Source of the DNA: Deltaproteobacteria bacterium
Lineage (GTDB): Bacteria > Desulfobacterota > DSM-4660 > Desulfatiglandales > HGW-15
Direction of reading: 5' to 3'
DNA: 34,204 bases
Assembly (NCBI GenBank): GCA_016930835.1
Contig: JAFGGA010000064.1
Span: 1-34,204 of the forward strand
The notes beneath the pieces were generated by a model. The model was not told the origin of the DNA, did no database searches, and saw nothing but the letters and a program-made list of their open reading frames with translations. The translations under genes were made by a program, and so were the position numbers. Shown here piece after piece: positions 2,797 through 20,513 of this stretch (position 1 is its first letter; the number at the start of each line of letters is the position of its first letter).

Positions 2797-3999
2797 TTGT
2801 TAAACGACTTACGAGTCCTGGATCTAACAGATGAAAAAGGCTGGTTTTGCGGCAAGATCCTGGCCGACCTGGGTGCTGATGTCATCAAGGTGGAAAGGCC
2901 GGGCGGAGATCCTGGAAGACGCCTTGGACCGTTTTATGGCGATGAACCCCATCCTGAAAAAAGTTTATTATGGTGTGCTTATAACGGCGGCAAAAAAGGT
3001 ATCACCCTGGACTTGGAAAATGAAAAAGGGGCTCAGACACTTAGCCAGTTGGTTCTAAATACGGATTTCTTTTTGGAGTCCTTTTCTCCAGGATATTTAA
3101 CAACCTTCGGTCTGGGATATGATGATCTCTCTCAGATCAACCCGAAGATGATTTATACCTCCATCTCCCCTTACGGACACACAGGCCCTTTTAAGGATTA
3201 TCCGGCATCGGATATCACCTCCATGGCTATGAGCGGGCTCATGAAGATCACCGGTTATCAGGATCGCGCCCCTTTGCTACTTGGACTGGATCAATCCTAT
3301 GGACTAGCATGCACTTATGCGGCCATCGGCACCTTGGTTGCCCATTATGCCCGCCATCGAACGGGACGGGGACAGCATGTGGATGTGTCCATTTTTGAGT
3401 GTACCGTACTGGCAAACTACCTGGAGCCGGTCCGTTGGGAATACGAGCAACGCATGGTGGATCGGATGGGTGACCGGTTTTCCAGAGGAAAGGGCAGCAC
3501 CACACAGGTCTGGCGTTGCCGCGACGGTTATGTCACTTGGACCATGATGGGGGGAGAAGTGGAGATCCAACGCCTCAAGGCCATTGTCGAGCGGATGGAT
3601 CAGGAAGGGATGGCGGGATATCTCAAGAACAAGGATCTGGAGGCCGTGCATCTATCCCAACTTTCCGAGGAGGAATTAAGACGATGGGAAGAGCCCATTC
3701 AAAATTTTTTTCTGAAACATACCAAGAAGGAATTGGAATCGTTTTCCAATGAAAAAAATCTTAGATTATGCGTAATTAATGAACTGGACGCCGTGGCGGA
3801 AAGTGAACATCTGAAGGCAAGAGGATTTTGGCAGGATGTTGAATATCCGGAGTTTGGACGGTCTATTCAATGTCCGGGCTATCTGTTTAACGCCCCTGAG
3901 ATGAATCCTCGTTTACGCTTTAAGGCCCCGCGTATCGGTGAGCATAATGAAGAGATTTTAGGGAAAGAGTTGGAGATGTTAAAATATGAACCCGTTTGA
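2797..3999 (+). CDS. Class III CoA-transferase (CaiB/BaiF), type B, copy 1
   Basis: The 400-residue product starts at a TTG. That start is supported by AGGAG at 2784-2788, overlapping the stop of the preceding gene. Visible family marks are LRVLDLTDEKGWFCGKILADLGADVIKVE-type N-terminal Rossmann sequence, the LGLDQSYG nucleophile region with likely catalytic Asp165, RTGRGQHVDVS after it, and a C-terminal RIGEHN. The closest relative here is the product at 5164, which shares the DMTDEKGF/DLTDEKGW opening and FFLKHTKKEL/FFLRHTKKEL segment. The gene overlaps the next one by 14 bp, so the three genes from 1553 are very likely co-transcribed and possibly translationally coupled. Acid and CoA donor are not deducible. 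Confidence 0.92.
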   Translation: MLNDLRVLDLTDEKGWFCGKILADLGADVIKVERPGGDPGRRLGPFYGDEPHPEKSLLWCAYNGGKKGITLDLENEKGAQTLSQLVLNTDFFLESFSPGYLTTFGLGYDDLSQINPKMIYTSISPYGHTGPFKDYPASDITSMAMSGLMKITGYQDRAPLLLGLDQSYGLACTYAAIGTLVAHYARHRTGRGQHVDVSIFECTVLANYLEPVRWEYEQRMVDRMGDRFSRGKGSTTQVWRCRDGYVTWTMMGGEVEIQRLKAIVERMDQEGMAGYLKNKDLEAVHLSQLSEEELRRWEEPIQNFFLKHTKKELESFSNEKNLRLCVINELDAVAESEHLKARGFWQDVEYPEFGRSIQCPGYLFNAPEMNPRLRFKAPRIGEHNEEILGKELEMLKYEPV

Positions 4000-5113
4000 G
4001 ACAATGAAAAAGCACTACCATGAACGTTCCCTGGCTGCCAAGGCATGGAAGGAAAACGGCGGAAAGGTGGTCGGGTATATCTCGGATGCGGTTCCCGTGG
4101 AGATGATCATCGCCGCCGGTCTTTTCCCTTTAAGGCTGAGTGGTGATCCTTTGGCATCGACGGATAAGGGTGATGAGACAATGGAATTTTTTTTCGAACC
4201 GTCGGTCCGGTCCATCTATGATCAACTTTTGACAGGGGCTCTTGATTTTCTCGATCTCTTGGTTATCCCTCATTACAATGACTCGGTTTTTAAGCTTTAT
4301 TATTATTTGATGGAAATCCAGCGAATGGATCCTTCCCTGAAATTGCCGGATTTTTATCTGTTCGACATGCTTTATACCAAGTGGTTTGCAACCAACCTGT
4401 ACAATCGCCAAATGATCCATGAATTCAAAAAGAAACTGGAAGATGTATCCGGCAAAGAAATCACCCCGGGTGCCTTATCCAATGCCATAGATATTGTTAA
4501 CGAAAACCGATCCCTGCTGAAGAAGATCTCCGGTTTCAGAAAGCTTGATCCGCCTCTTATTTCAGGGACGGAGGCCCTCCAAATCATAGGGTCATCCATG
4601 TTTATGGATAAAAAGGAACACAATAGGCTCTTAATGAATTTCCTGGTAGGAGCAGAACATAATTCTCCGAAAAAAGGTGTAAGGGTCTCTGTTGAAGGTA
4701 GTCAGATCGATCATCTGCGGTTTTATGAACTGGTTGAATCCTACGGTGCCGTGATTGTTACAGAGAGCCATTCCTGGGGAGATGGGATCTCGGATCACCC
4801 TGTAGACAATTCTTTTGAGCCGCTAGGGGCCATAACCGATAGATACCACCTTTATTCATCCAGTCCACGCCTTTATCCTAAGAGAGAGGAATTGCAGCAT
4901 TGTCTTGCCACGGCCAAAGAATTGAATGTTAGAGGGACCCTATTTTATTTCATGGAATGGGATGATATGCCCGCATGGGAATACCCTGAACAAAAAAAGA
5001 TTTTGGATGATAATCATATCCCATCTATATGTTTTCGGATGCAGAAATATCATCTAACGGAAACGGAAGAGGTAAAGTCGAAGCTAAAGGCGTTTATTGA
5101 AGCGGTTAGTTAG
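3986..5113 (+). CDS. HgdB/BcrC-like dehydratase/reductase subunit lacking cluster cysteines
   Basis: At 375 residues this matches the length and fold pattern of the small subunit of 2-hydroxyacyl-CoA dehydratases and class I benzoyl-CoA reductases (HgdB, FldC, BcrC). Recognisable are GGKVVGYISDAVPVEMIIAAG at 25-45, the DFLDLLVIP segment at 87-95, the VEGSQIDH region at 236-243 and the LKAFIE C-terminus. In canonical subunits three cysteines bind a [4Fe-4S] cluster. My alignment by eye places Glu71 (EPSVRS), Asn98 (PHYNDS) and Asp326 or Asp327 (EWDDMP) at those positions. The only cysteines are Cys306 and Cys349, neither in a ligand context. The gene overlaps the upstream CoA-transferase gene. 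It may be a structural partner of the 8476 product or a repurposed enzyme. Confidence 0.85.
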   Translation: MNPFETMKKHYHERSLAAKAWKENGGKVVGYISDAVPVEMIIAAGLFPLRLSGDPLASTDKGDETMEFFFEPSVRSIYDQLLTGALDFLDLLVIPHYNDSVFKLYYYLMEIQRMDPSLKLPDFYLFDMLYTKWFATNLYNRQMIHEFKKKLEDVSGKEITPGALSNAIDIVNENRSLLKKISGFRKLDPPLISGTEALQIIGSSMFMDKKEHNRLLMNFLVGAEHNSPKKGVRVSVEGSQIDHLRFYELVESYGAVIVTESHSWGDGISDHPVDNSFEPLGAITDRYHLYSSSPRLYPKREELQHCLATAKELNVRGTLFYFMEWDDMPAWEYPEQKKILDDNHIPSICFRMQKYHLTETEEVKSKLKAFIEAVS

Positions 5114-5163: not shown

Positions 5164-6405
5164 ATGACAAATAGACTATTACAAGGCTTCCGGGCCTTGG
5201 ATATGACGGATGAGAAGGGATTTGTTTGCGGCAAGGTGTTAGCGGCCATGGGTGTTGATGTCATTAAGGTTGAAAGACCGGGTGGAGACTCTTCCCGGAA
5301 CATCCCGCCTTTTGTGGATAATGATCCCGATCCCGAAAAATGCCTACTCTGGTTGATTTATAACACGGACAAAAGGGGGATTACGCTTAACCTGGAAACC
5401 GCCAAAGGACAGGACTTGTTTAAGGAACTTGTGAAGGTATCCGATTTTATCATTGAATCATTTACTCCCGGATATTTGGAAAGCATTGGCCTTGATTACG
5501 ATGCATTGAGCCGATTAAACAGGAGAATCATCATGACGTCTCTCACGCCTTTCGGACAGAAAGGGCCGTATAGTCGATTTAAGGGCGGTGAACTTATTGC
5601 GTCCGCCATGAGCGGTGTACTTTTAAGTAATGGTTACGCGGACCGCGCACCGGTGAAAGAGGCCCTGGATGCCAATTATTTTCATGCCAATGGTGCGGCC
5701 GTACTGGGTTCGGTCATGGCACATTATCATCGTGAGGCAACCGGCGAGGGTCAACAGGTGGACGTATCCGCTCAAGAAGTAAGCGCCAGCAGAAATACGA
5801 ACAATATATTGCCCTATCTTTTTGATAAACGAATGCTCAAGAGAAGCGGCGATTGCCAATGGTTGGGCCTCAACCCGGCCCGTTGGATCTGGGAATGTAA
5901 GGACGGTTATGTTTGGCATAACCTGATGGGCGGTAAGGTGGGCGCCCCCGCTAATCGAGCCTTATCACAGTGGATGGATGAAGACGGGATCGAAAATCCT
6001 CTCAGAGAAATAAAAGATTGGAATACATTTGATCGATCAACCGTGACCATGGAGGAAAAGACGGTTCGGGAAAAGGCTATCGCGGAATTTTTCTTAAGGC
6101 ACACCAAGAAGGAACTGGATACGGAAGGGAGACGGAGAGGGATCAACGCGGCCGTGGCCAATACCCCGGATGAGGTGGTTGAACACCCCCAGCTCAAGGC
6201 CAGAAATTATTGGGTCGAGTTGGAACATGCCGAATTGGGCCGGTCCATGCAATACCCCGGGCATTTCTTTTTATCCACCGAGACGACCACAAAGATTCAA
6301 CGTCGAGCGCCCCTCGTGGGTGAACATAATAAAGCGGTCTATCAGGAGTTGCTTGGTCTATCGGATTCGGAAGTGGAAGAATTGAAGGATAATGGTGTGA
6401 TTTGA
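5164..6405 (+). CDS. Class III CoA-transferase (CaiB/BaiF), type B, copy 2
   Basis: The 413-residue product begins at an ATG preceded by AAGGAGAT. Family marks are FRALDMTDEKGFVCGKVL at the N-terminus, the VIKVERPGGD segment at 34-42, EALDANYF with likely catalytic Asp169, ATGEGQQVDVSAQE after it, and LVGEHNKAVYQELLG at the C-terminus. It is a paralogue of the product at 2797 and belongs with it rather than with the type A enzymes. The 50-bp gap to the preceding gene holds only the hairpin remnant and the ribosome binding site, so it is probably the last gene of the 1553-6405 transcript. A 600-bp repeat-rich gap follows. The acid it handles is unknown; two A/B pairs would suit two successive CoA-transfer steps or two substrates. 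Confidence 0.92.
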   Translation: MTNRLLQGFRALDMTDEKGFVCGKVLAAMGVDVIKVERPGGDSSRNIPPFVDNDPDPEKCLLWLIYNTDKRGITLNLETAKGQDLFKELVKVSDFIIESFTPGYLESIGLDYDALSRLNRRIIMTSLTPFGQKGPYSRFKGGELIASAMSGVLLSNGYADRAPVKEALDANYFHANGAAVLGSVMAHYHREATGEGQQVDVSAQEVSASRNTNNILPYLFDKRMLKRSGDCQWLGLNPARWIWECKDGYVWHNLMGGKVGAPANRALSQWMDEDGIENPLREIKDWNTFDRSTVTMEEKTVREKAIAEFFLRHTKKELDTEGRRRGINAAVANTPDEVVEHPQLKARNYWVELEHAELGRSMQYPGHFFLSTETTTKIQRRAPLVGEHNKAVYQELLGLSDSEVEELKDNGVI

Positions 6406-7005
6406 ACAGAGAAAGGCGCAAGGCCCATCCGTCGTCTCTGAAATTTCCGCCGCCGTCTTCGACTATGGCGGGATAAAATGGCGAGACAGGTGGCGCAAAG
6501 GGAAAGAAAAAATTATTATTATATGCATTTTTTTGTGCCGGAGATTACATCCAGCCATAGTAGATTGGGATTTTGTTTCCGGTTGTCATTTCATCACAAC
6601 CATGGTTTTCGGCGGCATATAAAATGCCGCCCTACAAAAGACAATGACCGCACGAGTGTTTTTTGTAGGGCCGGGTTTTACACCCGGCCGTAGCGGATCG
6701 GATTTTGTGCGCGTTGGTCAATTCATTGTAGCCATGGTTTTCGGGGGCATGGAAAATGCTGTCCCACGAAAATAATACCTCCATGGGGTTTTTCGTAGGG
6801 ACAGCGACCCCGCCGCCCTAAATCCCCCTCCCCTGGCGGGAGGGGTTAGGGGAGGGGGTTCAGGAAAGACGAGGCGGCCTGAGACCCGCCCTCCATCACG
6901 CCAGAGCGTGACTGCGAGGGTGCAGCCCTTCGAAAGACAAAATGCGAACGGGATTATTCATAGGGCCGGCATTTGTGAGTGATTAACATAGCAGGAGAAG
7001 CAAAC
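6406..7005. repeat. Repeat-filled intergenic region with REP-like palindromes
   Basis: There is no convincing gene. The stretch has several GTAGGGCGGCAT/ATGCCGCCCTAC-type palindromes: GGCGGCATATAAAATGCCGCC at about 6613-6633, GGGCCGGGTTTTACACCCGGCC at about 6669-6690, and a GGCATGGAAAATGCT variant near 6745. A CCCCTCCCCTGGCGGGAGGGG hairpin follows near 6825-6846. Similar palindromes recur at 13300-13500. The ribosome binding site of the next gene (AGGAGAAG, 6993-7000) closes the region. Confidence 0.6.
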
Positions 7006-8226
7006 ATGGCAAAACAAGTCCTTGAGGGCGTGAAGATACTGGATTTTTCATGGGCCCTGGTGGGTTCAATCACCGCTAAGCAGTTGGGTGATCATGGCGC
7101 TCAGATCGTCAAGATCGAGACGTCAAAGCGGGTGGATCTGGCCAGGACAGATCGGCAGGTCTCCATATCCAAACCCAACAGCTTTGACGACAAACCGTGG
7201 TTTACCCATTTAAACACATCTAAATACAGTATGGCCCTTAATCTCAAACATCCACGATCCAGGGAGGTTGTGGATAAGCTCATTCAGTGGGCGGATGTGG
7301 TGTTGGAAAATTTTACGCCCGGGACCATGACAAAATTGGGTCTAGACTATGAGTCCATTAAGAAACAAAGGCCAGACATCATTATGGCCAGTGGGAGCGT
7401 TTATGGACAAACCGGCCCCATGGCCCAGGAATGGGGCGTGGATGGAACAGGAAATGCCCTATCCAGCAGGCTTTATCTTACCGGATGGCCGGACAGGGGA
7501 CCTGTGGTTCCCACGTCGGTACCCTATGGGGACGTGGTCCTGCCTACGTTTATCGCATCGGCAATTATCGCGGCCCTGGACTACAGACGGCGCACCGGGA
7601 AGGGCCAACATATTGATGCCGGCATGTTTGAGGCCATTGTTCATCAAACATCACCGGCAATCATGGATTGGGTCGCTAACCGGAATCTTCAAGGCCGTAC
7701 GGGAAATCGCAGTCTATACGCGTCGCCCCATGGGATTTTTCCGTGTGCAGGCGAAGATCGATGGGTTGCCATTACCGTATTTACCGAAGATGAGTGGCGG
7801 GCATTATGTCGGGTGATGGGAAATCCCGCATGGTCCCAAGAAGATCGCTTTTCCACCCTCAGCGCACGGAAAGAAAATGAAGATGATCTGGAAGCATACA
7901 TCTCTAAGTGGACCCGTCAATCCACGCCACATGAGATTATGGAGGAATGTCAGGCGGCCGGCGTGCCGGCAGGGGCGGTCCAAAACGCCGAAGATCTCAT
8001 CGAGCATGATCCGCAGTTAAAGGAAAGGGAATTTTTGACACCCATTGAACACCCGGTCCTGGGGACCTTCGGGCACCCCACACCGCCCTATAAATTACTC
8101 AGGAACAAGGCAGGTGTCCGGACCTCTCCTTGTTTGGGGGAACATACCTTTATGGTTTGTACGGAATTTTTGAATATGCCCGTCGAGGATTTTTTGGAAT
8201 TGGAAAATGAGGGGGTGTTTGTGTGA
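7006..8226 (+). CDS. Class III CoA-transferase (CaiB/BaiF), type A, copy 2
   Basis: I chose the ATG at 7006 because AGGAGAAG sits five bases upstream; a GTG at 6979 in frame has no such support. The resulting 406-residue protein aligns over its whole length with the product of 1553: LEGVKILDFSWALVGS at the start, NTSKYSMALNLKHPRS at 70-85, VPYGDVVLP with likely catalytic Asp176, RTGKGQHIDAGMFE, then AGVPAGAV and CLGEHT near the end. It should catalyse acyl-CoA:carboxylate CoA transfer in the cytoplasm. Its neighbours on both sides are repeat blocks, so it may be transcribed alone or by read-through. The type A pair probably arose by duplication and divergence, since similarity is clear but far from identity. 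Confidence 0.92.
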   Translation: MAKQVLEGVKILDFSWALVGSITAKQLGDHGAQIVKIETSKRVDLARTDRQVSISKPNSFDDKPWFTHLNTSKYSMALNLKHPRSREVVDKLIQWADVVLENFTPGTMTKLGLDYESIKKQRPDIIMASGSVYGQTGPMAQEWGVDGTGNALSSRLYLTGWPDRGPVVPTSVPYGDVVLPTFIASAIIAALDYRRRTGKGQHIDAGMFEAIVHQTSPAIMDWVANRNLQGRTGNRSLYASPHGIFPCAGEDRWVAITVFTEDEWRALCRVMGNPAWSQEDRFSTLSARKENEDDLEAYISKWTRQSTPHEIMEECQAAGVPAGAVQNAEDLIEHDPQLKEREFLTPIEHPVLGTFGHPTPPYKLLRNKAGVRTSPCLGEHTFMVCTEFLNMPVEDFLELENEGVFV

Positions 8227-8288: not shown

Positions 8289-8485
8289 GTTAAAACGTAA
8301 CAATTTAGGTTTTTCTAAATCCGAACAATTGGATTCCGCGATCAAGTCGCGGAATGACCAGCCTAGTTTTTGGGTACGAAACTGAAAATGATCACCTCGG
8401 GTTTTTGCCTGTCATTCCGCGACTTGATCGCGGAATCCATAGGTCCAAGTCAAATTTTCGAAAATAAAAAATGATATGTCAAAGC
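8289..8485. repeat. IS66-like MITE copy abutting a dehydratase gene
   Basis: The element runs 8297-8477 (181 bp), starting GTAACAATTTAGG and ending AAAATGATAT, with the two family palindromes at about 8335-8355 and 8413-8435. The flanking 8-mers GTTAAAAC (8289-8296) and GTCAAAGC (8478-8485) match at six of eight positions, as expected of an aged target duplication. Its right end overlaps the first two bases of the ATG at 8476. Confidence 0.75.
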
Positions 8486-9789
8486 AAACTTGTAAAGATA
8501 CTTTAATGGAAAAAGATAAGAATCAACAACAAAAAAGCATTAAACGGCTGCAATCATCAATCGATGCCAATGCGTATCAAAAGGCATGGTTCAAAGATCT
8601 TCGGGAAAAGATCAATAATGGCGAGTCCTATGCCATTGTAAGCGCCGACGCCCCGCATGAGATATTCCATGCCATGGATATCCCCATTGTCACCACCCAA
8701 TGGTGGTCGGCCGTGATCGCGGCCAAACAGCTCTCCTCTTATTATTTTGATCTCCTGAATGAGCGGGGGTATGGTAAGGATCTTTGCCGGTATTGCAGTC
8801 TTCCTTTGGCTTCCGCCATGGATCATAATCCCGAAATGGCCCCCTGGGGCGGGTTGCCCAAACCCACGGTGATTGTGGCGCGTTTGACCTGTGATGCCAT
8901 GCAAAAGGTCTATGACCTATGGGCCAAAGAAATGGGAGCCCCGTTTTTTCCATTTGAAAATCCTGGCTCGACCGTCATGTATCCGCGATGGTGGGAAAAA
9001 TGCCGTTATGACTGGGAAGCGCTTTATGAGACCCGTCGCCTGGATGTCATGGTAGAGGATCTGAAGGCGTTGATTCGGTTTTTGGAGATCCAGACGGGGA
9101 AGACATTCAGTTATTCAAAATTCGTCCGCATCATGGATCGTATTAATGAGCAGGAGGAGATCTACGACAAGATTCACGACCTGGTCGCCAAAACTGTTCC
9201 ATGCCCCATTAGTATCACGGATTCCATCCCCAGTGTGATGAATCCCCAGTGGCATCGCGGATCACAATGGGCACTGGATATGACCAAGCAGTTTTATGAG
9301 GAGGTCAAGGCGTGTGTTGATCAAGGACAAGCCGCCTGCGAGAATGAAAAGATCCGTCTCATGTGGATCGGTGCTGGCCTATGGTTTAATACGGGATTTT
9401 ATAATGCCTTTGAGGAGAAGTACGGTGCCGTCTTTGTCTGGTCCATGTACTTGGCCCTGGCCGCGGATGGTTATATCCGATATCCCACCAGCGATCCTTT
9501 AAGGGCCTTGGCAAGCCGTTTTGTGAGTATGAACGAGCAACTTCATATGCCGCCCTGGATGAACGAATGGCTTGTGAAAGAGGCCAAGTTACATAAGATC
9601 AATGGTGCCCTCATCCTAACCCCGACCAATTGCAAGCATTCCGGCGGTGGGACCTATTTTACCAAAAAGGCCCTGGAAAAGGCCGGTATTCCCACCATTG
9701 ACATCTGGGCCGATATGGTGGATGCCAGGGAATGGGATAATGATCAGATGATTGATTTGGTTTCCGAATTTATCGAAGGTATTATTTAG
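8476..9789 (+). CDS. 2-hydroxyacyl-CoA dehydratase/benzoyl-CoA reductase large subunit (BcrB/HgdA-like)
   Basis: The 437-residue product has the length and layout of BcrB and HgdA/FldB. Candidate [4Fe-4S] ligands are present: Cys104 or Cys107 (LCRYCSLPLA), Cys139 (LTCDAM) and Cys386 (TNCKHSGGG). The end has the usual GIPTIDIWADMVDAREW segment and SEFIE tail. Such enzymes, once reduced by an ATP-dependent activator, make ketyl or aryl radical intermediates to eliminate water from 2-hydroxyacyl-CoA or reduce aromatic thioesters. No activator gene is in the window. The likely partner, at 3986, lacks the matching cysteines. The start is uncertain: ATG 8476 straddles the end of a MITE, ATG 8506 is an alternative, and neither has a clear ribosome binding site. 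The stop codon lies in the left end of another small repeat. Confidence 0.9.
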   Translation: MSKQTCKDTLMEKDKNQQQKSIKRLQSSIDANAYQKAWFKDLREKINNGESYAIVSADAPHEIFHAMDIPIVTTQWWSAVIAAKQLSSYYFDLLNERGYGKDLCRYCSLPLASAMDHNPEMAPWGGLPKPTVIVARLTCDAMQKVYDLWAKEMGAPFFPFENPGSTVMYPRWWEKCRYDWEALYETRRLDVMVEDLKALIRFLEIQTGKTFSYSKFVRIMDRINEQEEIYDKIHDLVAKTVPCPISITDSIPSVMNPQWHRGSQWALDMTKQFYEEVKACVDQGQAACENEKIRLMWIGAGLWFNTGFYNAFEEKYGAVFVWSMYLALAADGYIRYPTSDPLRALASRFVSMNEQLHMPPWMNEWLVKEAKLHKINGALILTPTNCKHSGGGTYFTKKALEKAGIPTIDIWADMVDAREWDNDQMIDLVSEFIEGII

Positions 9790-9853: not shown

Positions 9854-10120
9854 ATGTAAGTCATGCCGTCGAAAAATGGAACGATAGAGCATTGAATTCA
9901 ACGAGAAAAAAAAGGTTGACATTATTCGCGGAATTTGGTTTTAGTGAAATTCTTGGATAATCAAAGCTTTTAACTAATCCTCGCTTTTTTAATGATTTTA
10001 ACCCAGTAACCTATAAACTACCCCCTTGCTTTCGGAGAGGGACTCCAGGGATTCACCCAATTGAACGGACAGGGTAGCGAGGGGTATTTATAAACATCAA
10101 ATCGCAAAAGGAGGAGAGAA
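9854..10120. promoter_or_regulatory. Intergenic region before the TRAP genes with a weak promoter candidate
   Basis: TTGACA at 9916-9921 is followed after 18 bp by TTTAGT at 9940-9945, a four-of-six match to a -10. The plus strand from about 9823 to 9960 also reads as an open frame ending FAEFGFSEILG-stop, without a start codon, so the same bases may be a coding remnant. AAGGAGGAGAGA just before 10121 is a strong ribosome binding site for dctP. Confidence 0.3.
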
Positions 10121-11170
10121 ATGGGAAAATTGGTTAAACGTCTATCTTTGGTTGTTTTTGGGGCCTTGATTGTTGCGGGATTGATATTTAGCGCCAATAC
10201 AAATGTCGTCCAGGCAGCGGAGATCAACTTGACCTATGGTGGTAACTGGCCGCCGAACCATCCCATGTCGGTTGCCACACAAGAGTGGATCAATAAAATA
10301 GCAAAGGAAACAAACGGTCGGGTAAATATCAAGCCCTTCTGGGCCAGCGCGCTTTACAAGCCGAGAGAATCCGCCATGGAATTGGGTAAGGGTGTGGCTG
10401 ATATCGGAGATCTCTCCGGCGCCTATGCACCGGTAGGATATGCTTTTGAAAAATCCATGCGCATGGCCTTCTGGGGTGTGGATGACAGGATACTGGCCCG
10501 CAAGGTCTATTATGCGGCCAGGGAAAAATATCCTCAGCTTGACAAGGAGTTTACAGATGGTAATGTCAAGGTCATGGCTTATGCCTCCATCCCGCCTTAT
10601 CAGTTGCTGGTCGCCAAGAAGAAGATCGCCAGCACCGCTGATTTTAAGGGCATGACCATAAAGGCCACCGGTGATATCGCCAAACTGATAAACGAACTCG
10701 GCGGCAGCGGTATCAACATGCCCATGGGCGAAACCTACACCGCCCTTCAAAAGACCACCATTGACGGAGCCGTTGCACCCTATGAGACCCTGAAGTCCTT
10801 TCGTTTCGCCGAGGTGGTGAAATATGCCCTCGAACTCAATATCGGAGCGGCTCCGGCCGGGCACTGGGCATTCAACCTCGATTCCTGGAAAAAGTTGCCC
10901 AAGGACATCCAAAAGGTAATCGAGGACAATATCGAATGGTTCAGCAACAGAATCGAAGAGCTGGTTTACGCCGGTGAAGAATTGGGCATTAATCTGGCCA
11001 AAGAACATAAAGTAGAATTTCTGAAACTGCCGGCCTCGGAACTGGATAAAGTATATGCCATTGTTGAAAAAACGATCCTTCAAGAGATGAAGGCGGTTGA
11101 TGACCAAGGATTACCGGGCACAGAGGTCTATCAGTACATGAGAAGCCTCATCAAACAGCACAGCAAATAG
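10121..11170 (+). CDS. dctP: TRAP transporter substrate-binding protein (DctP family)
   Basis: The 349-residue protein has a Sec signal peptide (basic start, hydrophobic core at 8-24, likely cleavage after QAA near 33) and the DctP-family body starting EINLTYGGNWPPNHP. Segments such as ELGKGVADIGDLSGAY and TALQKTTIDGAVAPYETL are typical of the fold. It binds an organic acid in the periplasm and delivers it to DctQM. In most members an arginine in a G-x-K-I-R segment pairs with the ligand carboxylate; here the segment reads KGMTIKATG, with Lys181 at that place by my alignment. The start is well supported by AAGGAGGAGAGA. A strong hairpin separates it from dctQ, which would favour excess binding protein. 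The ligand is unknown. Confidence 0.93.
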   Translation: MGKLVKRLSLVVFGALIVAGLIFSANTNVVQAAEINLTYGGNWPPNHPMSVATQEWINKIAKETNGRVNIKPFWASALYKPRESAMELGKGVADIGDLSGAYAPVGYAFEKSMRMAFWGVDDRILARKVYYAAREKYPQLDKEFTDGNVKVMAYASIPPYQLLVAKKKIASTADFKGMTIKATGDIAKLINELGGSGINMPMGETYTALQKTTIDGAVAPYETLKSFRFAEVVKYALELNIGAAPAGHWAFNLDSWKKLPKDIQKVIEDNIEWFSNRIEELVYAGEELGINLAKEHKVEFLKLPASELDKVYAIVEKTILQEMKAVDDQGLPGTEVYQYMRSLIKQHSK

Positions 11171-11179
11171 TCAAACCTA

Positions 11180-11193
11180 GAGCTATATAGCTC
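11180..11193. promoter_or_regulatory. Perfect 14-bp palindrome after dctP
   Basis: GAGCTATATAGCTC begins nine bases after the dctP stop codon, 16 bp before the intergenic hairpin. It could extend the RNA structure or be a protein site; no further evidence. Confidence 0.3.
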
Positions 11194-11209
11194 AGCGTAC
11201 CGGGGGATA

Positions 11210-11244
11210 AAAATAGTGGGCTTCTTAGGAGAGCCCACTATTTT
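11210..11244 (+). terminator. Hairpin between dctP and dctQM
   Basis: AAAATAGTGGGCT (11210-11222) pairs perfectly with AGCCCACTATTTT (11232-11244), with a 9-base loop. The stem ends in four T residues, so it can act as a partial intrinsic terminator or as a stabiliser of the dctP message 3' end. Either would give more DctP than membrane subunits. Confidence 0.7.
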
Positions 11245-11285
11245 CGTGTTCAATCTCAAAACCATCAAAGCCAAAAGGGGGAATC

Positions 11286-11768
11286 ATGGGTGTCTTGGCT
11301 GCATGGCTTGAGCGCATCACCAAATGGGGTGTGCTTGGAGGCGGTGTTTTTTTGTTGGGAGCCATGATGCTTTTAATAAGCAATATCGTGGGCAGGCTTG
11401 TTAACTTCGTTATTCCAGGGAGTTATGAGATATTCGAACTCATTATGGTGGTTCCCGTGTCCTTTGCACTGGTTCACGCCGCCCTGAAAAAGTATCATGT
11501 TGTGGTGGAGCTTATCATCAAGCGATTTCCACCCAGGCTGGGCGCCGTGGCTGAAATGTTCGCGTCCCTCCTTATGATTGTTACATGGGGATGGATGGCC
11601 TATGCAGGTACGAGCTATGCCATAGAAAACGGTTTTCAGGAACTCTCTGAGACACTGGAAATCCCTTATCTGCCCTTTCGCATGCTGTTTCTATTCTGTT
11701 TACTTCTTTTTTGCCTGACCTATGTTGTTGATTTCGCCCAGGCGTTCAGGAGGTTTTCAAACAAATGA
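11286..11768 (+). CDS. dctQ: TRAP transporter small membrane subunit (DctQ family)
   Basis: The 160-residue protein has the four hydrophobic segments of DctQ proteins, at roughly 14-37, 50-68, 90-110 and 128-150. The ATG is preceded by AAGGGGGAATC. DctQ binds the large DctM subunit in the inner membrane and is required for sodium-driven uptake of the ligand delivered by DctP. It overlaps dctM by four bases (ATGA), so the two are translationally coupled. Order and sizes are those of a standard DctPQM operon. Confidence 0.92.
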   Translation: MGVLAAWLERITKWGVLGGGVFLLGAMMLLISNIVGRLVNFVIPGSYEIFELIMVVPVSFALVHAALKKYHVVVELIIKRFPPRLGAVAEMFASLLMIVTWGWMAYAGTSYAIENGFQELSETLEIPYLPFRMLFLFCLLLFCLTYVVDFAQAFRRFSNK

Positions 11769-13072
11769 GTGGCATAACTCTCGGCATTCTGGGTTTTATC
11801 ATCCTTTTTGCGCTGCTGGCAGTCGGGGTGCCCATCGGAGGTGGTATGGCCTTGATGGGTTTTTTGGGGTTGTGGTTGCTCATCTCCGATGTGGCCGCTT
11901 TTACCAAGCTGGCCCTGGTGCCTTTCCAGACCGCCACGGAGTATTCCCTGGCCGTCATACCTCTCTTTATCCTCATGGCCCAGGTGGTTTTCGTGAGCGG
12001 TATGGGCCGGGATCTCTTTACCCTTGCCTCCAAGTGGCTGGGTCATAAAAGAGGCGGTGTAGCCATGGCTGCAGTAGCCGGTTCAGCCGTGTTCGCGGCC
12101 CTTTCGGCCTCCAGTATTGCCACGGCAACCACCATCGGACTGGTTGCCATCCCGGAGATGAAACGGCTCAAGTACGATCCGGCCTTGGCCACCGGTTCTG
12201 TGGCCGCGGGCGGAACCATGGGGGTTTTGATACCGCCCAGCGGTGCGCTCATCATCTATGGCATCCTGACCGAAACATCCATTGGGAAGCTTTTTGCTGC
12301 GGGTATTATCCCGGGGATCCTTGAAGCGATCTTTTATATCATTGTTATTGGCATTTTATGTTATTGGAAGCCCACCTACGGCCCACGCGCGGAAAAGACC
12401 ACCTTTAAGGAAAAGATCAAGGCCTTGGGTATGTGCGGTGAGATCGTGGCGCTCATCATATTTGTATTGGCCGGGTTGATCCTGGGGTTTTTCACGCCCA
12501 CGGAGGCCGGAGCGGTAGGCGCATTCGGTGCCATCGTCATCACTACCCTCAGAAAAAGGCTTACATGGGTCGGTTTTAAAAACGCCATTATTGACACATT
12601 CAAGACCACGGGCATGATCTATGGGATATTGATCGGCGCCTTGATCTTTAATTATTTTGTAGCGATCACCACCATTCCTTATGTGCTCTCGGATTTTATC
12701 GGTGCTTTGCCATTGCCGCCCATGGTCATTCTGATCATGATACTGATCCTTTATTTTTTCTTGGGTTGTTTCCTGGATGTGGCGGCCATGACGGTGCTGA
12801 CCGTCCCCATCTTTTTCCCTCTAGTGATCAGCCTGGGATTCGACGGCATTTGGTTCGGTATCATCTTCATGAGGATGGCGGAGATCGCCATGATCACACC
12901 ACCCATTGGGATGAACACCTTTGTGATTGCCGGTGTGGCCAAGGACATGGGCATCGAGATGGGAACGGTATGGAAAGGTATTTTCCCATTTCTTATCGCC
13001 GACTTTTTCCATGTGGCCTTGCTCATCGCGTTCCCCATCCTTTCTTTGTTCCTGGCCAATATGCTGATGTAA
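11765..13072 (+). CDS. dctM: TRAP transporter large permease subunit (DctM family)
   Basis: The 435-residue, strongly hydrophobic protein has about a dozen membrane segments. DctM features are visible: SASSIATATTIGLVAIPEM at about 115-133, GGTMGVLIPPSGALIIYGIL near 149-168, FFTPTEAGAVGAFGAI around 240-255 and ITPPIGMNTFVIAG near 378-391. It forms the elevator-type sodium:substrate symport channel with DctQ. AGGAGG lies 11 bp before the ATG within the end of dctQ. Two strong terminators follow, so the TRAP operon ends here. It is the natural entry route for the acid handled by the flanking CoA-transferases (inference from context). Confidence 0.95.
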   Translation: MSGITLGILGFIILFALLAVGVPIGGGMALMGFLGLWLLISDVAAFTKLALVPFQTATEYSLAVIPLFILMAQVVFVSGMGRDLFTLASKWLGHKRGGVAMAAVAGSAVFAALSASSIATATTIGLVAIPEMKRLKYDPALATGSVAAGGTMGVLIPPSGALIIYGILTETSIGKLFAAGIIPGILEAIFYIIVIGILCYWKPTYGPRAEKTTFKEKIKALGMCGEIVALIIFVLAGLILGFFTPTEAGAVGAFGAIVITTLRKRLTWVGFKNAIIDTFKTTGMIYGILIGALIFNYFVAITTIPYVLSDFIGALPLPPMVILIMILILYFFLGCFLDVAAMTVLTVPIFFPLVISLGFDGIWFGIIFMRMAEIAMITPPIGMNTFVIAGVAKDMGIEMGTVWKGIFPFLIADFFHVALLIAFPILSLFLANMLM

Positions 13073-13847: not shown

Positions 13848-14969
13848 ATGAATATGAACGTAGTATTATTAGCCGTCGGTGATGTGGCACCGAATCGGGA
13901 AAACCCCCATTCCATGTTCCAGTATGTTAAAGATTTTCTCAATCATGGTGATATAGGATTTTGTCAACTGGAGGCCAATCTTTCATCGCGGGGAACCCCG
14001 CTGCCACAGGCCCGGTTGCCCATGCGGGTCCACCCCAATAACGCGGAAGCCATTAAAGACGCTGGTTTTCACGTGGTTTCATTCGCCGGGAACCATTGCC
14101 TGGATTGGGGGCAGGACGCCTTATTCGACACCATTGATGTGATCAAAGAACAGGGTTTGCATATCATCGGTGTCGGGGCTAATATAGAGGAGGCCCGGAG
14201 ACCGGCTATTATTGAAAAAAATGGCACAAGGATCGCCTTTTTGGCCTACAATTCGGTTTTACCCATGGGGTATTGGGCGGAAGAAGATAGGCCGGGTTGT
14301 GCACCCATAAGGGCATTCACGGTCTATGAGCCGGTTGAACACGACCAACCCGGCACACCATGCCGAATCCATACCTTCACAAAAAAAGATGATCTTCAAG
14401 CCATGGTTGATGATATCCAAAATACCAGGGACAAGGCTGATATCATTGTCTTATCCATGCACTGGGGGATCCATTTTGTGCCGGCCCAGATAGCGGATTA
14501 TCAGCGGGAGATAGCCCATACGGCCATTGATTGCGGTGTTGACATGATTATTGGTCATCATCCCCATATCCTGAAGGGGATAGAGGTCTACAAAGGGAAA
14601 GTGGTGATGTACAGCCTGGGCAATTTCGCCATTGAACAGCCGGGCGCCTTTATGACGGACTTATATAACAGCCGACGTCACAAAGAAATCGAGACCCTTA
14701 ATCCTGAATGGGACAGCCATGATGATTATCCCTTGCCGCCGGAGACCCGGAATTCCTTTGTGGCGAAGTGCATGATTTCCGGTGGACATATCAGTCGTGT
14801 TTCTCTTTTCCCGGTTTACCTCACCACGCGGTCCGAACCGGAGATCATGAAGGTATCGGATAAACAATTTGAGAATGTTGTTCAATACATAGAAGATATT
14901 ACAAAGAGTCAAGGCTTCGGAACGAAGTTCTTACGTGAGGGGGATGAGGTGGTCATCAAGACGGATTAA
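13848..14969 (+). CDS. CapA-family (PgsA-like) metallophosphatase-fold protein
   Basis: The 373-residue product shows the CapA signature set: LLAVGDVAPNR at 6-16, LEANLSSRGTPLP near 41-53, the SFAGNHCLDWG motif around 78-88, LSMHWGIHF near 202-210, IIGHHPHILKG near 235-245 and YSLGNF after it. These are the metal-binding blocks of the calcineurin-like phosphoesterase fold. Classical CapA/PgsA proteins are membrane-anchored and serve poly-gamma-glutamate export, but this one has no signal peptide or membrane segment, so it is probably cytoplasmic with another role, perhaps a phosphoesterase or amide-type reaction linked to catabolism. ATG 13854 is an equally possible start. It stands alone, between repeats. 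Confidence 0.85.
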   Translation: MNMNVVLLAVGDVAPNRENPHSMFQYVKDFLNHGDIGFCQLEANLSSRGTPLPQARLPMRVHPNNAEAIKDAGFHVVSFAGNHCLDWGQDALFDTIDVIKEQGLHIIGVGANIEEARRPAIIEKNGTRIAFLAYNSVLPMGYWAEEDRPGCAPIRAFTVYEPVEHDQPGTPCRIHTFTKKDDLQAMVDDIQNTRDKADIIVLSMHWGIHFVPAQIADYQREIAHTAIDCGVDMIIGHHPHILKGIEVYKGKVVMYSLGNFAIEQPGAFMTDLYNSRRHKEIETLNPEWDSHDDYPLPPETRNSFVAKCMISGGHISRVSLFPVYLTTRSEPEIMKVSDKQFENVVQYIEDITKSQGFGTKFLREGDEVVIKTD

Positions 14970-15356: not shown

Positions 15357-16736
15357 ATGAACGAATCTACAATACTCGCCAAATATGCGGTTGAGACCCG
15401 TTATGAGGATCTTCCGGATCGGGCCAGGGAAATGGCCAAGATGTCCTTCCTGGATGCACTGGGCGTCACCCTTGCCGCGAGCAGCCTGGGCAAAGGATGC
15501 CAGGCATTCGTGGATATCGCCGGACAAGGGGAAGGAAAAAAAGAAAGCACCATCCTGGGCTTTCAGAAAAAGGTGCCTGCACCCATGGCCGCCTTTGCCA
15601 ATGGTTCCATGGCCCATGCCCTTGATTTTGAGGATGCCCATGATCAGGCCCTGGTCCATCCCAATGCCGTTGCCGTCCCCGTGACCCTGGCACTGGCTGA
15701 ATCCATGGGAGATGTGGATGGAAAGGCGTTTATTACGGCCCTGGCCGTGGGTTGTGATCTGGTATGCCGATTGGGTCTGGCATTTAAAGAGAATCCTGCC
15801 GAATATGGTTGGTATATCCCCCCCATCCTGGGGGCCTTCGGAGCCACGGCCGCGGCCGGCAGGTTATTGGGTTTAAGTGAGACGGAAATGGTGGACGCCT
15901 TCTCTCTCACGCTCTGCCAGGCCACGTGCAGCGCGGAACTTAGGTACAGCCCTGAATCCGATATCCGGGCGGTTCGCGATGCTTTCGCGGCCAAGGCCGC
16001 TCTCTTGTCGGCCTTACTGGCGAAGAAAGGCATAAAAGGGTTTGATCATCCTTTTGAAGGAAAGGCCGGGCTTTTCAGCCTTTATTCAAAAGGGCATTAT
16101 GACTCCGACACATTGCTGAAAGATTTGGGCAAGGTATTTGAAGGGGCCAATGTCAGCTTTAAACCATGGCCCACATGCAGAGGGACCCATACCTTTATCG
16201 AAGCAGCCTTTAATATCATCGATGAAGAAAATGTCCGTCCTGAGGATATTTCGGATATTCGAGTGATTGTCAGCTCTTTCAATCAAATGCTTTGTGAACC
16301 GCTGGAGGTTAAAAGAAACCCCCAGGCCGTCATCGATGCCAAATTCAGCATTCCCTTTGTCCTGGCCACAGCCTTGGTTTATGGGAATGTCACGTTAGAT
16401 CATTTTGTTCCTGAGAGCCTGAAGGACGATAAAGTCCTAAGACTGGCACAAAAAATAAGGTATGAATTGGATGCCAGCCTGGGTCTCCGGGAAGCCACTC
16501 GGGCATTCCTGGAAATCAAGACCCGGGATAATATGATTTTGACAAAACAGATTGACCAGGCCTATGGGCACCCTGATCATCCTATCTCCAAAGAGGCCCT
16601 TGTGAAAAAGTTCATGGATTGTGCGGCAAAGGCCGTGAAAAAAATCCCCGAGAATCATCTGGAAAAGGTAGTGGAACTTATATTGGGTTTGGAGGAGTTG
16701 AAGGATATTCGTAAGGTTGTCGATTATTTGAGGTAG
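15357..16736 (+). CDS. MmgE/PrpD family protein
   Basis: The 459-residue protein has the length and sequence style of the MmgE/PrpD fold (2-methylcitrate dehydratase, cis-aconitate decarboxylase and relatives). Visible blocks are the N-terminal DRAREMAKMSFLDALGVTLAAS region, AFANGSMAHALDFEDAHDQALVHP at about 79-102 (the conserved active-site stretch), the ILGAFGATAAAGRLLGLSE helix pair near 157-175, and FKPWPTCRGTHTFIEAAFNI around 268-287. Members dehydrate or decarboxylate tricarboxylic-type acids, or are of unknown function. In a carboxylate-degrading setting it may act on a polycarboxylate intermediate, but no 2-methylcitrate cycle partner (prpB, prpC) is present, so I do not call it PrpD. 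GAGAGGG precedes the ATG. Confidence 0.9.
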   Translation: MNESTILAKYAVETRYEDLPDRAREMAKMSFLDALGVTLAASSLGKGCQAFVDIAGQGEGKKESTILGFQKKVPAPMAAFANGSMAHALDFEDAHDQALVHPNAVAVPVTLALAESMGDVDGKAFITALAVGCDLVCRLGLAFKENPAEYGWYIPPILGAFGATAAAGRLLGLSETEMVDAFSLTLCQATCSAELRYSPESDIRAVRDAFAAKAALLSALLAKKGIKGFDHPFEGKAGLFSLYSKGHYDSDTLLKDLGKVFEGANVSFKPWPTCRGTHTFIEAAFNIIDEENVRPEDISDIRVIVSSFNQMLCEPLEVKRNPQAVIDAKFSIPFVLATALVYGNVTLDHFVPESLKDDKVLRLAQKIRYELDASLGLREATRAFLEIKTRDNMILTKQIDQAYGHPDHPISKEALVKKFMDCAAKAVKKIPENHLEKVVELILGLEELKDIRKVVDYLR

Positions 16737-17193
16737 AGATTATTCTGGATTTCAATCAGTAATTTCTGGTTAGGATTTTGCACTAACATTGGGTTACTGG
16801 ATCCGTGGTGATTTCTTTTTAGATGCGAATCCCGCAGGGCGGGATTAGAAGCAAGATAGGGGCATATATTGCTCCTCAGGCGGGCGGCATGAACCTCTCC
16901 GTTTCGGTCCGATTTCGATCCCGTGGAAATTCAATCTCAAACGGATACACCGGACGATCATTCTTCGCACCAGTGATTCTTGGCGTTGGCAATACGCTTA
17001 TATCCTGCGGTTGATGCCCTTCGCCGTTTGAAAAGAGACCCCCAAGGACCAATCGGTGATACGATAATGTTAAATCTTAACCGGACACAACTGATCTTAT
17101 AAGATATCTGTTAATAAACCCTTGATTGACTCATCAAAGGTGGTTAGATTATTATGTTTGGAGGCGAAACCTTTAAAAAACAGGAGACGCTCT
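16737..17193. other. Intergenic region with palindromes before the glycyl radical genes
   Basis: Besides a minus-strand coding remnant (16876-17052) it holds the palindrome ATCTTATAAGAT at 17094-17105, a possible regulatory site, and the TTGAT..ATCAA pair at 17122-17138. CAGGAGACGC at 17181-17190 supplies the ribosome binding site for the next gene. An in-frame TTG at 17122 would extend that gene by 24 codons but has no ribosome binding site. Confidence 0.4.
16876..17052 (-). pseudogene. C-terminal coding remnant of unknown family
   Basis: The minus strand is open from 17076 to a TGA at 16876-16878, with no ATG; a TTG at 17052 is the only start candidate. The end of the product, DRPVYPFEIEFPRDRNRTET then ERFMPPA, has a protein-like composition. 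I do not recognise the family. With no start, ribosome binding site or partner, it is best read as the tail of a gene lost by rearrangement, or a chance frame. Confidence 0.25.
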
Positions 17194-19590
17194 ATGAGTG
17201 CGAGGATGAAAAGGCTTTTAAAAAGCATTGAGGTGGAGAAATATCCCCTCTGTATTGAAAAGAGCCGTCTGATAACGGAATCTTTTAAAAGGACCGAAGG
17301 TGAACCCATGATCATGAGACGGGCCAAGGCATTGGCCAATATCCTCGATCATATTCATATTTTTATCGAGAATGATCAGATGATCGTGGGAAATGCCGCC
17401 AGTAAACCCATGGGATTGGAGTTTGATTTTTACGCGGGACTGTGGTCAAAGGAAGAGATTGAAGGGCTGAAAGAGGTCGGTTATGTCATCTCCGATGATG
17501 AGGAAAAGGAACTCTTGGAGATGCGAGAATATTGGAAGTCCTATAATCCCATCAGCCGGGTCGGGCAGATGCTGGATGATCGGCTATGGCCGTTTTTTCA
17601 GTCCGGCATGGTACTCCCTCCATGGAAAGATAAGGAAGAGGGTCCCGGCGGCGGGTATGCTGAAAGCGGGATGGGTTTAGGGCCGGGATTTTATATCCTC
17701 ACCGTGGATTTTCAAAGACTCCTCCAAGGGGGCTTGAACCGGATTATTGAGGAAGCGGAAGAAGAACTCAAGAAATTGGACCTAACCGATCCTGACTCCA
17801 TGAACCGGATCGCTTTTTTAAAGGCCGTCATCATCTCCCAACAGGCCATCATTCGTTTTGCCGAACGGTTCGCGAATCTGGCCGATGAAATGGCGGCAAA
17901 GGAATCCGATCCAAAGCGGAAAGAGGAATTGGAACGGATCGCCGTCACTTGTCGACATATACCGGCCGATCCGCCTCGGACATTTTATGAGGCCATGCAA
18001 TTCTTCTGGTTGGCATTTCTCATGACCACCCCTTCTCCGACGGCTTCCATCGGCCGGTTTGATCAATATATGTATCCTTTTTACAAGAAAGATATTGAAA
18101 ACGGGACGACCACCGATGAAGAGGTCCTGGAGCTTCTCCAGTGTCTTCGCATCAAGGATATGCACATCAACAGAACATCAGGGAAATTGGCCAGACAAAA
18201 AAACGCGGGTATGGCCAAATGGCACAACATGACCATAGGCGGGGTGATCCCTGAAACCGGCGAAGACGCCACCAATGAATTGTCTTATTTGGTCCTGGAC
18301 GCCGTTAAGCTTTGTCCGGTCCCTCATCATACGGTAACCGTTCGCGTCAATGAAAACACGCCCGAAGATCTCATGTTGAAGGCCCTGGAGGTCGTAAAGA
18401 CGGGAATCGGAATGCCGGCCTTTGTTGGAGACCGTTCCTATATCGAATATCTCCTCAGCGAAAAAGTATCCTTGGAAGATGCGCGAGACTACGCTTTGGG
18501 AGGTTGTATTGATGCCACCATCGTCGGAAAGTCGCGTATAGCCTCATATGGTATGTTCATCATCTCAAAAATCTTTGAGATTACCATGAACAATGGATTG
18601 GATCCCCGGATGAACATACGGATGGGGCCAAAGACCGGAGAATTCGAAAGCTTTGCGACTTTTGATGAGTTTCTCGACGCCTTTAAAAAACAGCTCAAGT
18701 ATTTCATGGGCCTGCACGCGGAACGAAACAATATCGAATTGCAGATTTTTCGGGATTTATACCCTGATCCGGTTCGGTCGGCCTGGATGTATCGCGGGGT
18801 CCAAGAAGGCAAGGCCCTTTTGGAGCGCAAATTTCCATTTGAAAACGCGGCGGTATTAAATCCCGTAGGCTTGATCAATGTCGTTGATTCCCTGGCCGCG
18901 GTGAAAAAGGTCGTGTTTGACGATAGAAAAGTCGGGCAAAAAGAGTTGTTCGAGACATTACAATCCGACTGGAAAGGGGCACGGGGCCAAGAGATCCGGA
19001 AATTATTTTTGGCCGCGCCCAAGTACGGAAACAATGACGATTACGTGGATTCCATAGCCCGGGATATTTACCATTATTACGCAAAAACAGCGACTCAGTT
19101 TAAGACCTATATCGGCGGGACCCATAAACCTACGGGTGTTTCCATCTCGGCCCAGTGGCCGGGCGGGGCCTTGACTGGCGCCACGCCGGATGGGCGATAC
19201 GCGGGGGACTGCCTGGCCGATGGGACCGTATCCGCCATGCGCGGGATGGATACCCATGGACCCACGGCCGTTATCCTGAGCGCCTCTAAAATCGATCAAG
19301 TTCCTTTTCAAGCGTCATTAATGAACATGAAATTTCATCCATCATCCTTGAAAACTACCGATGATCTTAGAAAACTATCATTCCTGATTCGGACCTACTT
19401 TAGTCGCAACGGAAAACACATCCAGTTTAACGTGGTGAATAAAGAAACTCTTGTGAATGCACAGAAAGAACCGGAGAAGCATAAAGACCTGATTGTCCGG
19501 ATAGCCGGTTACAGCGCCTATTTTGTACAACTCGGCGAGCCCATGCAGAACGAGATCATAGGACGAACAGAGCACGAGGAGGCAGCATGA
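17194..19590 (+). CDS. Glycyl radical enzyme (PFL-like family), copy 1
   Basis: I place the start at ATG 17194, with GGAGA six bases upstream, giving 798 residues and an N-terminus matching the product of 21169. The PFL-like domain carries the active-site cysteine Cys438 in LGGCIDATIVGKS; the C-terminal glycine-radical loop is RIAGYSAYFV with radical Gly772. TGATPDGR near 671-678 is another family mark. Once its glycine is activated, the enzyme makes a thiyl radical at Cys438 for C-C, C-O or C-N cleavage. Characterised eliminases carry Cys-X-Glu; here it is Cys-X-Asp (Asp440). The exact reaction is not deducible. The activase gene overlaps by four bases. The enzyme is oxygen-sensitive and cytoplasmic. 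Confidence 0.93.
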   Translation: MSARMKRLLKSIEVEKYPLCIEKSRLITESFKRTEGEPMIMRRAKALANILDHIHIFIENDQMIVGNAASKPMGLEFDFYAGLWSKEEIEGLKEVGYVISDDEEKELLEMREYWKSYNPISRVGQMLDDRLWPFFQSGMVLPPWKDKEEGPGGGYAESGMGLGPGFYILTVDFQRLLQGGLNRIIEEAEEELKKLDLTDPDSMNRIAFLKAVIISQQAIIRFAERFANLADEMAAKESDPKRKEELERIAVTCRHIPADPPRTFYEAMQFFWLAFLMTTPSPTASIGRFDQYMYPFYKKDIENGTTTDEEVLELLQCLRIKDMHINRTSGKLARQKNAGMAKWHNMTIGGVIPETGEDATNELSYLVLDAVKLCPVPHHTVTVRVNENTPEDLMLKALEVVKTGIGMPAFVGDRSYIEYLLSEKVSLEDARDYALGGCIDATIVGKSRIASYGMFIISKIFEITMNNGLDPRMNIRMGPKTGEFESFATFDEFLDAFKKQLKYFMGLHAERNNIELQIFRDLYPDPVRSAWMYRGVQEGKALLERKFPFENAAVLNPVGLINVVDSLAAVKKVVFDDRKVGQKELFETLQSDWKGARGQEIRKLFLAAPKYGNNDDYVDSIARDIYHYYAKTATQFKTYIGGTHKPTGVSISAQWPGGALTGATPDGRYAGDCLADGTVSAMRGMDTHGPTAVILSASKIDQVPFQASLMNMKFHPSSLKTTDDLRKLSFLIRTYFSRNGKHIQFNVVNKETLVNAQKEPEKHKDLIVRIAGYSAYFVQLGEPMQNEIIGRTEHEEAA

Positions 19591-20513
19591 CAAATATTGA
19601 AGAAGTAAGAGGCGTAACATTCAATCTCCAACATTATTCCATCCACGATGGACCTGGCATACGAACCACCGTATTTTTAAAGGGTTGTCCTTTAAGGTGT
19701 GTATGGTGTCAGAATCCCGAATCACAGGATTTCAAACCCGTTATATTTTTGAATCTTGAAAGGTGTACGGGGTGCGGTACTTGCGTAAATGCATGCCCTG
19801 AGGCCGCTATTCAGATCATTGACGGTAAGTCCAAAACAGACCGCAAGCTTTGTAAAGGCCATGGTCAATGTGCCGAGGTCTGCCCCAACGAGGCGCGAAG
19901 CCTTATGGGAAAATACATGACCGCTCGGGAGGTCTTCGATGATGTCAACGCGGATGCCATTTTTTATCAGAATTCAGGGGGTGGAGTGACTCTGTCCGGC
20001 GGTGATCCGGTGGCCCAGCCGGAGTTTTCAAGGGCTATCCTGAAATTATGCCATGATGCCGGTATTCATACAGCCATTGAGACCAGTGGTTTCGCCAAAT
20101 GGGATATCTTTAAGGGTATTCTGGAATACACGGATCTGGTCCTGTATGACATCAAGCACATGGATTCAGCCAAACACAAGGAATACACGGGTGTTCCCAA
20201 TGAAATGATTTTAGAGAACGCCGTAAGGATACGCAAGGAACTGGATCTTTCCATGCTTGGGCGATTGCCCATTATGCCGGGTTATAATGATTCTCCCGAA
20301 AACATGGAGAGAACGGCCCAATTCATCGCAAACGATCTCGGCGGCGGGTTCAAGGTCCATCTCCTACCGTACCACCGATTGGGCGAGACAAAATATGCAA
20401 GAATGGAGGAGCCCGATAAGGCTGTTTCCATTACCCCTCCCACCGAGGAACATATGGCGGAACTGGTCAAGATATTTGAATCAAAAGGCTTGGAGACAGT
20501 GGTTGGGGGATGA
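19587..20513 (+). CDS. Glycyl radical enzyme activase (radical SAM)
   Basis: The 308-residue protein has the radical-SAM motif CPLRCVWC (Cys34, Cys38, Cys41) after HDGPGIRTTVFLKG, and a ferredoxin-like insert, which marks it as a glycyl radical enzyme activase longer than PflA. The first insert motif is complete (Cys60, Cys63, Cys66, Cys70). The second reads C89-KGH-GQ-C95-AEV-C99, with His92 where the second cysteine normally sits. The usual SGGEP loop is LSGGDP (residues 137-141). It abstracts hydrogen from the radical glycine of its partner using 5'-deoxyadenosyl radical. ATGA overlap with the upstream gene and GAGGAGG before its ATG show coupled expression. It probably serves the enzyme at 21169 as well, since no second activase is present. 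Confidence 0.95.
   Translation: MTNIEEVRGVTFNLQHYSIHDGPGIRTTVFLKGCPLRCVWCQNPESQDFKPVIFLNLERCTGCGTCVNACPEAAIQIIDGKSKTDRKLCKGHGQCAEVCPNEARSLMGKYMTAREVFDDVNADAIFYQNSGGGVTLSGGDPVAQPEFSRAILKLCHDAGIHTAIETSGFAKWDIFKGILEYTDLVLYDIKHMDSAKHKEYTGVPNEMILENAVRIRKELDLSMLGRLPIMPGYNDSPENMERTAQFIANDLGGGFKVHLLPYHRLGETKYARMEEPDKAVSITPPTEEHMAELVKIFESKGLETVVGG

Follow-up and report, generated by a model that had tools for sequence, protein, structure and literature searches.

The gene at 3986–5113 of the window, by which we mean the whole stretch of 34,204 nucleotides analysed here, encodes a small subunit of the BzdN/HadC type in which none of the six cluster cysteines is left. It is accompanied by the gene of a large subunit of the BzdO/HadB type (8476–9789) with a complete set of cysteines. 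We call such a combination, a small subunit with triple cysteine loss beside a cysteine-complete large subunit, type A. Judged from sequence, it is a conserved variant of the enzyme rather than a broken gene, because the same arrangement occurs in bacteria of three phyla. The fold and the family are already known; the loss of the cluster ligands from the small subunit is new and undescribed. Our literature search found no paper on HGD-D subunits without these cysteines; a publication about a gene cluster for benzene activation concerns other proteins. All window features given below lie on the + strand.

Cluster-ligand sites of the two subunits

The open reading frame 3986–5113 is intact, starts with ATG and encodes 375 amino acids with a Pfam HGD-D match (PF06050, 1.2e-50). 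Its nearest NCBIfam relative is BzdN of class I benzoyl-CoA reductase (BCR), and a phmmer comparison with PDB sequences gave BzdN (8s02_B, 1.1e-36) and HadC (3o3m_B, 1.2e-14). The AlphaFold2 (AF2) monomer model had a pLDDT of 93.1 and a pTM of 0.92, and Foldseek aligned it with HadC (TM 0.90) and BzdN (TM 0.89). The product of 8476–9789 (437 amino acids; HGD-D, 1.4e-56; AF2 monomer pLDDT 88.6) is nearest to BzdO (TM 0.82–0.83) and HadB (TM 0.82–0.83 by query, 0.90 by target). Both proteins have the profile and the fold of the BCR I/HAD superfamily; the bzd-type NCBIfam models scored 124 and 72 bits on the pair, against a cut-off of about 450.

The initial annotation had assumed that both subunits of such enzymes bind a [4Fe-4S] cluster through three cysteines. 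This is outdated for BzdN. Fuchs et al. (2025, PMC11971306) reported that BzdN carries an [8Fe-9S] double cubane held by Cys36, Cys73, Cys100, Cys263, Cys293 and Cys327, and that helices 74:85, 103:113 and 327–343 have the cluster at their N-terminal ends. By homology to HadC, we infer that the 73/100/327 triad holds the proximal cubane and the 36/263/293 triad the distal one. In our alignment, the six places are taken in the window protein by Ser33 (4082–4084), Glu71 (GAA, 4196–4198), Asn98 (AAT, 4277–4279), Ser263 (4772–4774), Ser293 (4862–4864) and Asp326 (GAT, 4961–4963), respectively. A residue-by-residue phmmer alignment with 3o3m_B, with conserved flanks, placed Glu71, Asn98 and Asp326 in the columns of the first, second and third HadC ligands. 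An alignment with paralogues of the window's own genome and with relatives of the same order placed them in these columns as well, and relatives have invariant cysteines there. In the AF2 model, each of these three residues immediately precedes a helix (first residues 72, 99 and 327), as in BzdN. Thus, the positions that the initial annotation had assigned by eye are confirmed, and the triple loss that it described is really sextuple when compared with BzdN.

Cys306 and Cys349 had been named as residues that might serve as ligands instead. Cys306 lies in helix 299–312 and Cys349 in strand 347–353 of the model, and the two were rejected as shifted ligands because neither is kept in orthologues: Cys306 is Leu in the three Coriobacteriia orthologues, and Cys349 is Ser, Ala, His or Tyr among the orthologues. 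Ordinary variability of HAD small subunits was ruled out by a control set from 27 Negativicutes genomes, in which the triad is kept in all HadC/HgdB-like subunits (29/29).

The large subunit keeps its cysteines, as had been noticed before. The predicted cluster ligands are Cys104 (8785–8787), Cys139 (8890–8892) and Cys386 (9631–9633), and the alignment showed these cysteines throughout the type A set (6/6) and in 16/16 other large subunits. The acid/base residue Glu65 of BzdO is replaced by Gln75 (8698–8700), which is part of a QWW motif; this column reads Gln in every type A sequence (6/6) and Glu in 15 of the 16 others. The place of His131 of BzdO is taken by Met142, and the residue at Cys139+3 is Met, His or Gln across type A. 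Neither of the two catalytic residues of a bzd-type class I BCR is therefore found in the window large subunit. A further cysteine, Cys107 (8794–8796), forms a CxxC with the ligand Cys104 in 6/6 type A large subunits and in about 2/16 elsewhere. On alignment grounds, it is a possible fourth ligand, which would close the iron site; the corresponding place in BzdN is Cys76, which is absent from the BzdN ligand list.

The pair resembles known systems in part. It shares with BzdN/BzdO (PDB 8s02) both subunit folds, the heterodimer partnership, the three-cysteine site of the large subunit and a CoA-ester context, but the [8Fe-9S] cluster on six BzdN cysteines, which is characteristic of the N subunit of bzd-type class I BCR, has no cysteine ligand left. 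With HadB/HadC, the (R)-2-hydroxyisocaproyl-CoA dehydratase (PDB 3o3m, 3o3n), it shares the small-subunit fold, the large-subunit [4Fe-4S] ligands and the involvement of CoA-transferases. However, the three-cysteine cluster of HadC is absent, the active-site Glu of HAD is Gln, and no activase gene lies near the window pair. HAD component D has one three-cysteine cluster per subunit; the window large subunit agrees with this and the small subunit does not, so that the pair lacks the two-cluster feature that defines HAD. The double-cubane cluster protein DCCP (PDB 6eno, 7yyl), which has been proposed as the ancestor of the family (PMC11971306), is alike in fold but has [8Fe-9S] in both subunits, whereas at most one [4Fe-4S] is predicted per window heterodimer. 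The desulfidase TudS, likened here by description only, is a precedent in the superfamily for non-redox use of a cluster (PMC11971306) and, unlike the window heterodimer, is a single-domain protein.

Distribution of the variant and graded cysteine loss

Type A pairs were found in six genomes of three phyla: the window, L081 (genome G131, a Deltaproteobacteria MAG), L079 (Dehalococcoidia), L082 (Candidatus Aphodovivens avistercoris, Coriobacteriia), and L140 and L141, two genomes from an order-level search around L082. The initial annotation had called for a search for homologues that combine this triple loss with a cysteine-complete partner gene, and five further genomes hold them. Small-subunit identity to the window protein is 51% for L081, 53% for L079 and 31% for L082. 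The two subunit genes are adjacent in L081, L082, L140 and L141; in the window and in L079, two CoA-transferase genes lie between them in the same order. The small subunits without the cysteines form one clade in the tree (support 100/100), and their large partners also form one clade (support 100/100). In the small-subunit clade, a motif [DE]xxx[ASV]W[DE] begins at the place of Asp326. Decay or sequencing error as the cause of the loss was ruled out by this pairing, which is conserved over the six genomes and three phyla.

All six ligands are lost in the small subunits of the window, L081, L082, L140, L141, L046 and C17, a contig of the window's own genome. Alignment with the BzdN ligands showed that the small subunit of L079 (L079:10001–11179) and both small subunits of L080 (Desulfobacteraceae; L080:6298–7431 and 10001–11131) have lost the proximal triad and kept Cys36, Cys263 and Cys293 (BzdN numbering). 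In the literature consulted, we found no description of small subunits with the distal double-cubane cysteines only. Because these three clade members have the distal-cubane cysteines, some of the clade may still hold a cluster at that site. A small-subunit fragment on C206 keeps both distal cysteines within its span, and a truncated copy on C60 keeps the sole distal cysteine within its span. The distribution of the cysteine sets places a single loss of the proximal triad at the base of the clade. Judging from the alignment, the distal triad was probably lost later, more than once.

In other pairs, which we call type B, the large subunit also has no cysteine at the three sites. Type B was identified by alignment in C17, C206 and two pairs of L080. 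Both subunits lack the three proximal or catalytic cysteines in L051:9873–12426 (C17), L053:10849–12651 (C206, where the small subunit is partial), and L080:6298–8646 and 10001–12433. The type B pairs of C17 and L080 adjoin CoA-transferases. The C17 pair has no cluster cysteine in either subunit at the aligned sites, which indicates that this branch tolerates total loss of Fe-S clusters.

The 2025 work on BzdNO proposed that functions were acquired in the superfamily through the loss of Fe-S sub-clusters, as in DCCP, BCR, HAD and TudS (PMC11971306). The present clade would lengthen this series, with a cluster-free relay subunit and then fully cluster-free pairs. Engineered Cys-to-Ala variants of BzdNO were reported to be unstable (PMC11971306). 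Unlike these, the clade would offer natural one-cluster enzymes, and therefore the role of the second cluster, a long-standing question, would become directly testable. The Acidaminococcus fermentans enzyme is said to have been reported once with a single cluster. One cluster in each subunit of the dehydratase is described in PMC8473912.

Further altered sites were observed. The small subunits of L002, L003 and L005 (C215 and C129 of the own genome) have CxxC at site 1 and Asp at the second ligand; the distal three cysteines are lost and the third cysteine is kept. The third cysteine is changed to His in the large subunits of L084, L086, L091, L099 and L102 (GHMGH, CHIGH or AHIAH). Close to the end of contig C60 (L069:1501–2154), a small-subunit paralogue of 47% identity is cut short at 217 residues by a TGA; it is either a broken gene or an assembly edge.

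Possible chemistry of the pair

The products of 3986–5113 and 8476–9789 would pair as a heterodimer of the BCR/HAD fold. Ligand loss in the first and the cysteine-complete second subunit support the one-cluster variant that the initial annotation had raised, and on alignments and models the one cluster is very probably held by the large subunit. We also consider a fuller reading likely on balance, in which the heterodimer has a single [4Fe-4S] in the large subunit only, no relay, and non-redox Lewis-acid chemistry. The cluster would be bound through Cys104, Cys139 and Cys386, and the small subunit would be a cluster-free structural partner, whereas its counterpart in relatives carries an electron-relay or storage cluster. 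In HAD, the activase gives an electron to the small-subunit cluster, which is 12 angstroms from the catalytic cluster and stores the electron between turnovers (PMC11574389; PMC8473912). In the window system, the CoA-transferases encoded alongside would produce a CoA thioester, which may bind the single cluster at its open iron. The cluster would then act as a Lewis acid in a non-redox elimination or hydration, as in aconitase or TudS, and no recycled low-potential electron would be stored. Loss of the relay and replacement of the catalytic Glu by Gln make the Lewis-acid role seem the most likely one; the sister pairs without catalytic ligands also favour a non-redox reaction. Taken as a separate claim, the non-redox chemistry predicted from alignments and models is evenly balanced.

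A less probable explanation is that the pair is a one-cluster radical enzyme similar to HAD or BCR, in which an activase encoded at a distance feeds the large-subunit cluster directly, with no storage in the small subunit. It would fit with the three cysteines and the HadB/BzdO fold kept in the large subunit, and with the channel that connects the BzdO cluster to solvent and is closed off by binding of the activase module (PMC11971306). Component D of HAD is activated by an ATP-dependent activase (PF01869); no stand-alone one was found on the window contig, which counts in favour of the non-redox reading. Stand-alone activases are encoded elsewhere in the own genome (C199, C132 and C123) and in several type A genomes, which also speaks for a radical enzyme, and the cysteine-complete HGD-D pairs of the own genome have no adjacent activase either, so the absence nearby is weak evidence. 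However, a radical mechanism has to face the loss of all relay ligands and of the conserved Glu65. Moreover, no stand-alone activase was found in G463 (Dehalococcoidia), a possibly incomplete assembly whose only HGD-D genes are the type A pair.

The initial annotation had also suggested that the small-subunit site holds a different metal through Glu71, Asn98 and Asp326. Sites 1 and 3 are indeed acidic in all six type A small subunits (E/D and D/E). However, site 2 is N, R, S, S, S and T in the six; it is Arg in L079 and three more clade members, and two cluster-free relatives have Asp there. Three sister proteins carry Val, Ser or Ala at site 1. No His has been recruited at the three sites in the type A alignment, and the combination Glu-Arg-Asp resembles the filling of a vacated pocket by salt bridges. 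With sites 1 and 2 variable and no conserved metal triad, another metal is very improbable. Hardly credible, too, is a degenerating pseudo-subunit, or a subunit that pairs with a cluster-bearing partner from another locus: the 20 HGD-D matches in the own genome would make an exchange of partners possible, but the reading frame is intact, the protein is 51–53% identical to its orthologues from a different class and a different phylum, linkage to the cysteine-complete large subunit is conserved in six genomes, and G463 has no further HGD-D gene.

A wider reading can be put forward tentatively, which we hold to be possible but somewhat doubtful. The clade may have left Fe-S redox chemistry stepwise, from a double cubane to the distal cubane only, then to a cluster-free small subunit, and finally to two cluster-free subunits. 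It may now catalyse non-redox conversions of CoA esters as part of a new catabolic pathway of the glycyl-radical/CoA-transferase kind, which would be common to Desulfobacterota-type bacteria, Dehalococcoidia and gut Coriobacteriia.

Gene neighbourhood

The pair points to an anaerobic catabolic gene cluster, so far uncharacterised, that includes unassigned glycyl radical enzymes. Two pairs of genes for class III CoA-transferases were found by Pfam. The first pair is at 1553–2785 (CaiB-type, CoA_transf_3, 1.1e-107) and 2797–3999 (4.6e-79), and the latter gene shares 14 bases with the start of the small-subunit gene. The second pair is at 5164–6405 (7.5e-72) and 6979–8226 (2.8e-101), with 58% and 65% identity to the L079 orthologues, respectively. 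Downstream of the large subunit are a TRAP transporter (DctP, DctQ and DctM by Pfam, 10121–13072), a CapA-like PGA_cap protein, which is a recurrent neighbour (13848–14969, 1.5e-70; 61% in L079), and a protein of the MmgE/PrpD family (15357–16736, PrpD-type NCBIfam matches; 59% in L079).

The first glycyl radical enzyme (17122–19590) has a GCID motif and matched TIGR01774 (9e-181) below the curated cut-off. It is followed by a glycyl radical enzyme activase of the radical SAM type (19587–20513, TIGR02494 above cut-off). The second enzyme, with a GCLD motif, was found by NCBIfam profile search at 21169–23568. No named equivalog matched the glycyl radical enzymes of the window above its cut-off. 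The usual motif of glycyl radical enzymes is C-x-E (GCxE); those of the window and of L166 (L166:2726–7829) have GC[IL]D, that is, C-x-D. Nearly all of the window gene set has orthologues on the Dehalococcoidia contig, with identities of 79% and 66% for the glycyl radical enzymes, 65% for the activase, 60% for the large subunit and 53% for the small subunit. Glycyl radical enzymes near an HGD-D pair were also found in L082 and L162.

A module of a CoA-transferase pair, an HGD-D pair and a transporter occurs in several copies in the own genome, on the window contig, C17, C199 and C215. Most of these copies are accompanied by PGA_cap, MmgE/PrpD or both.
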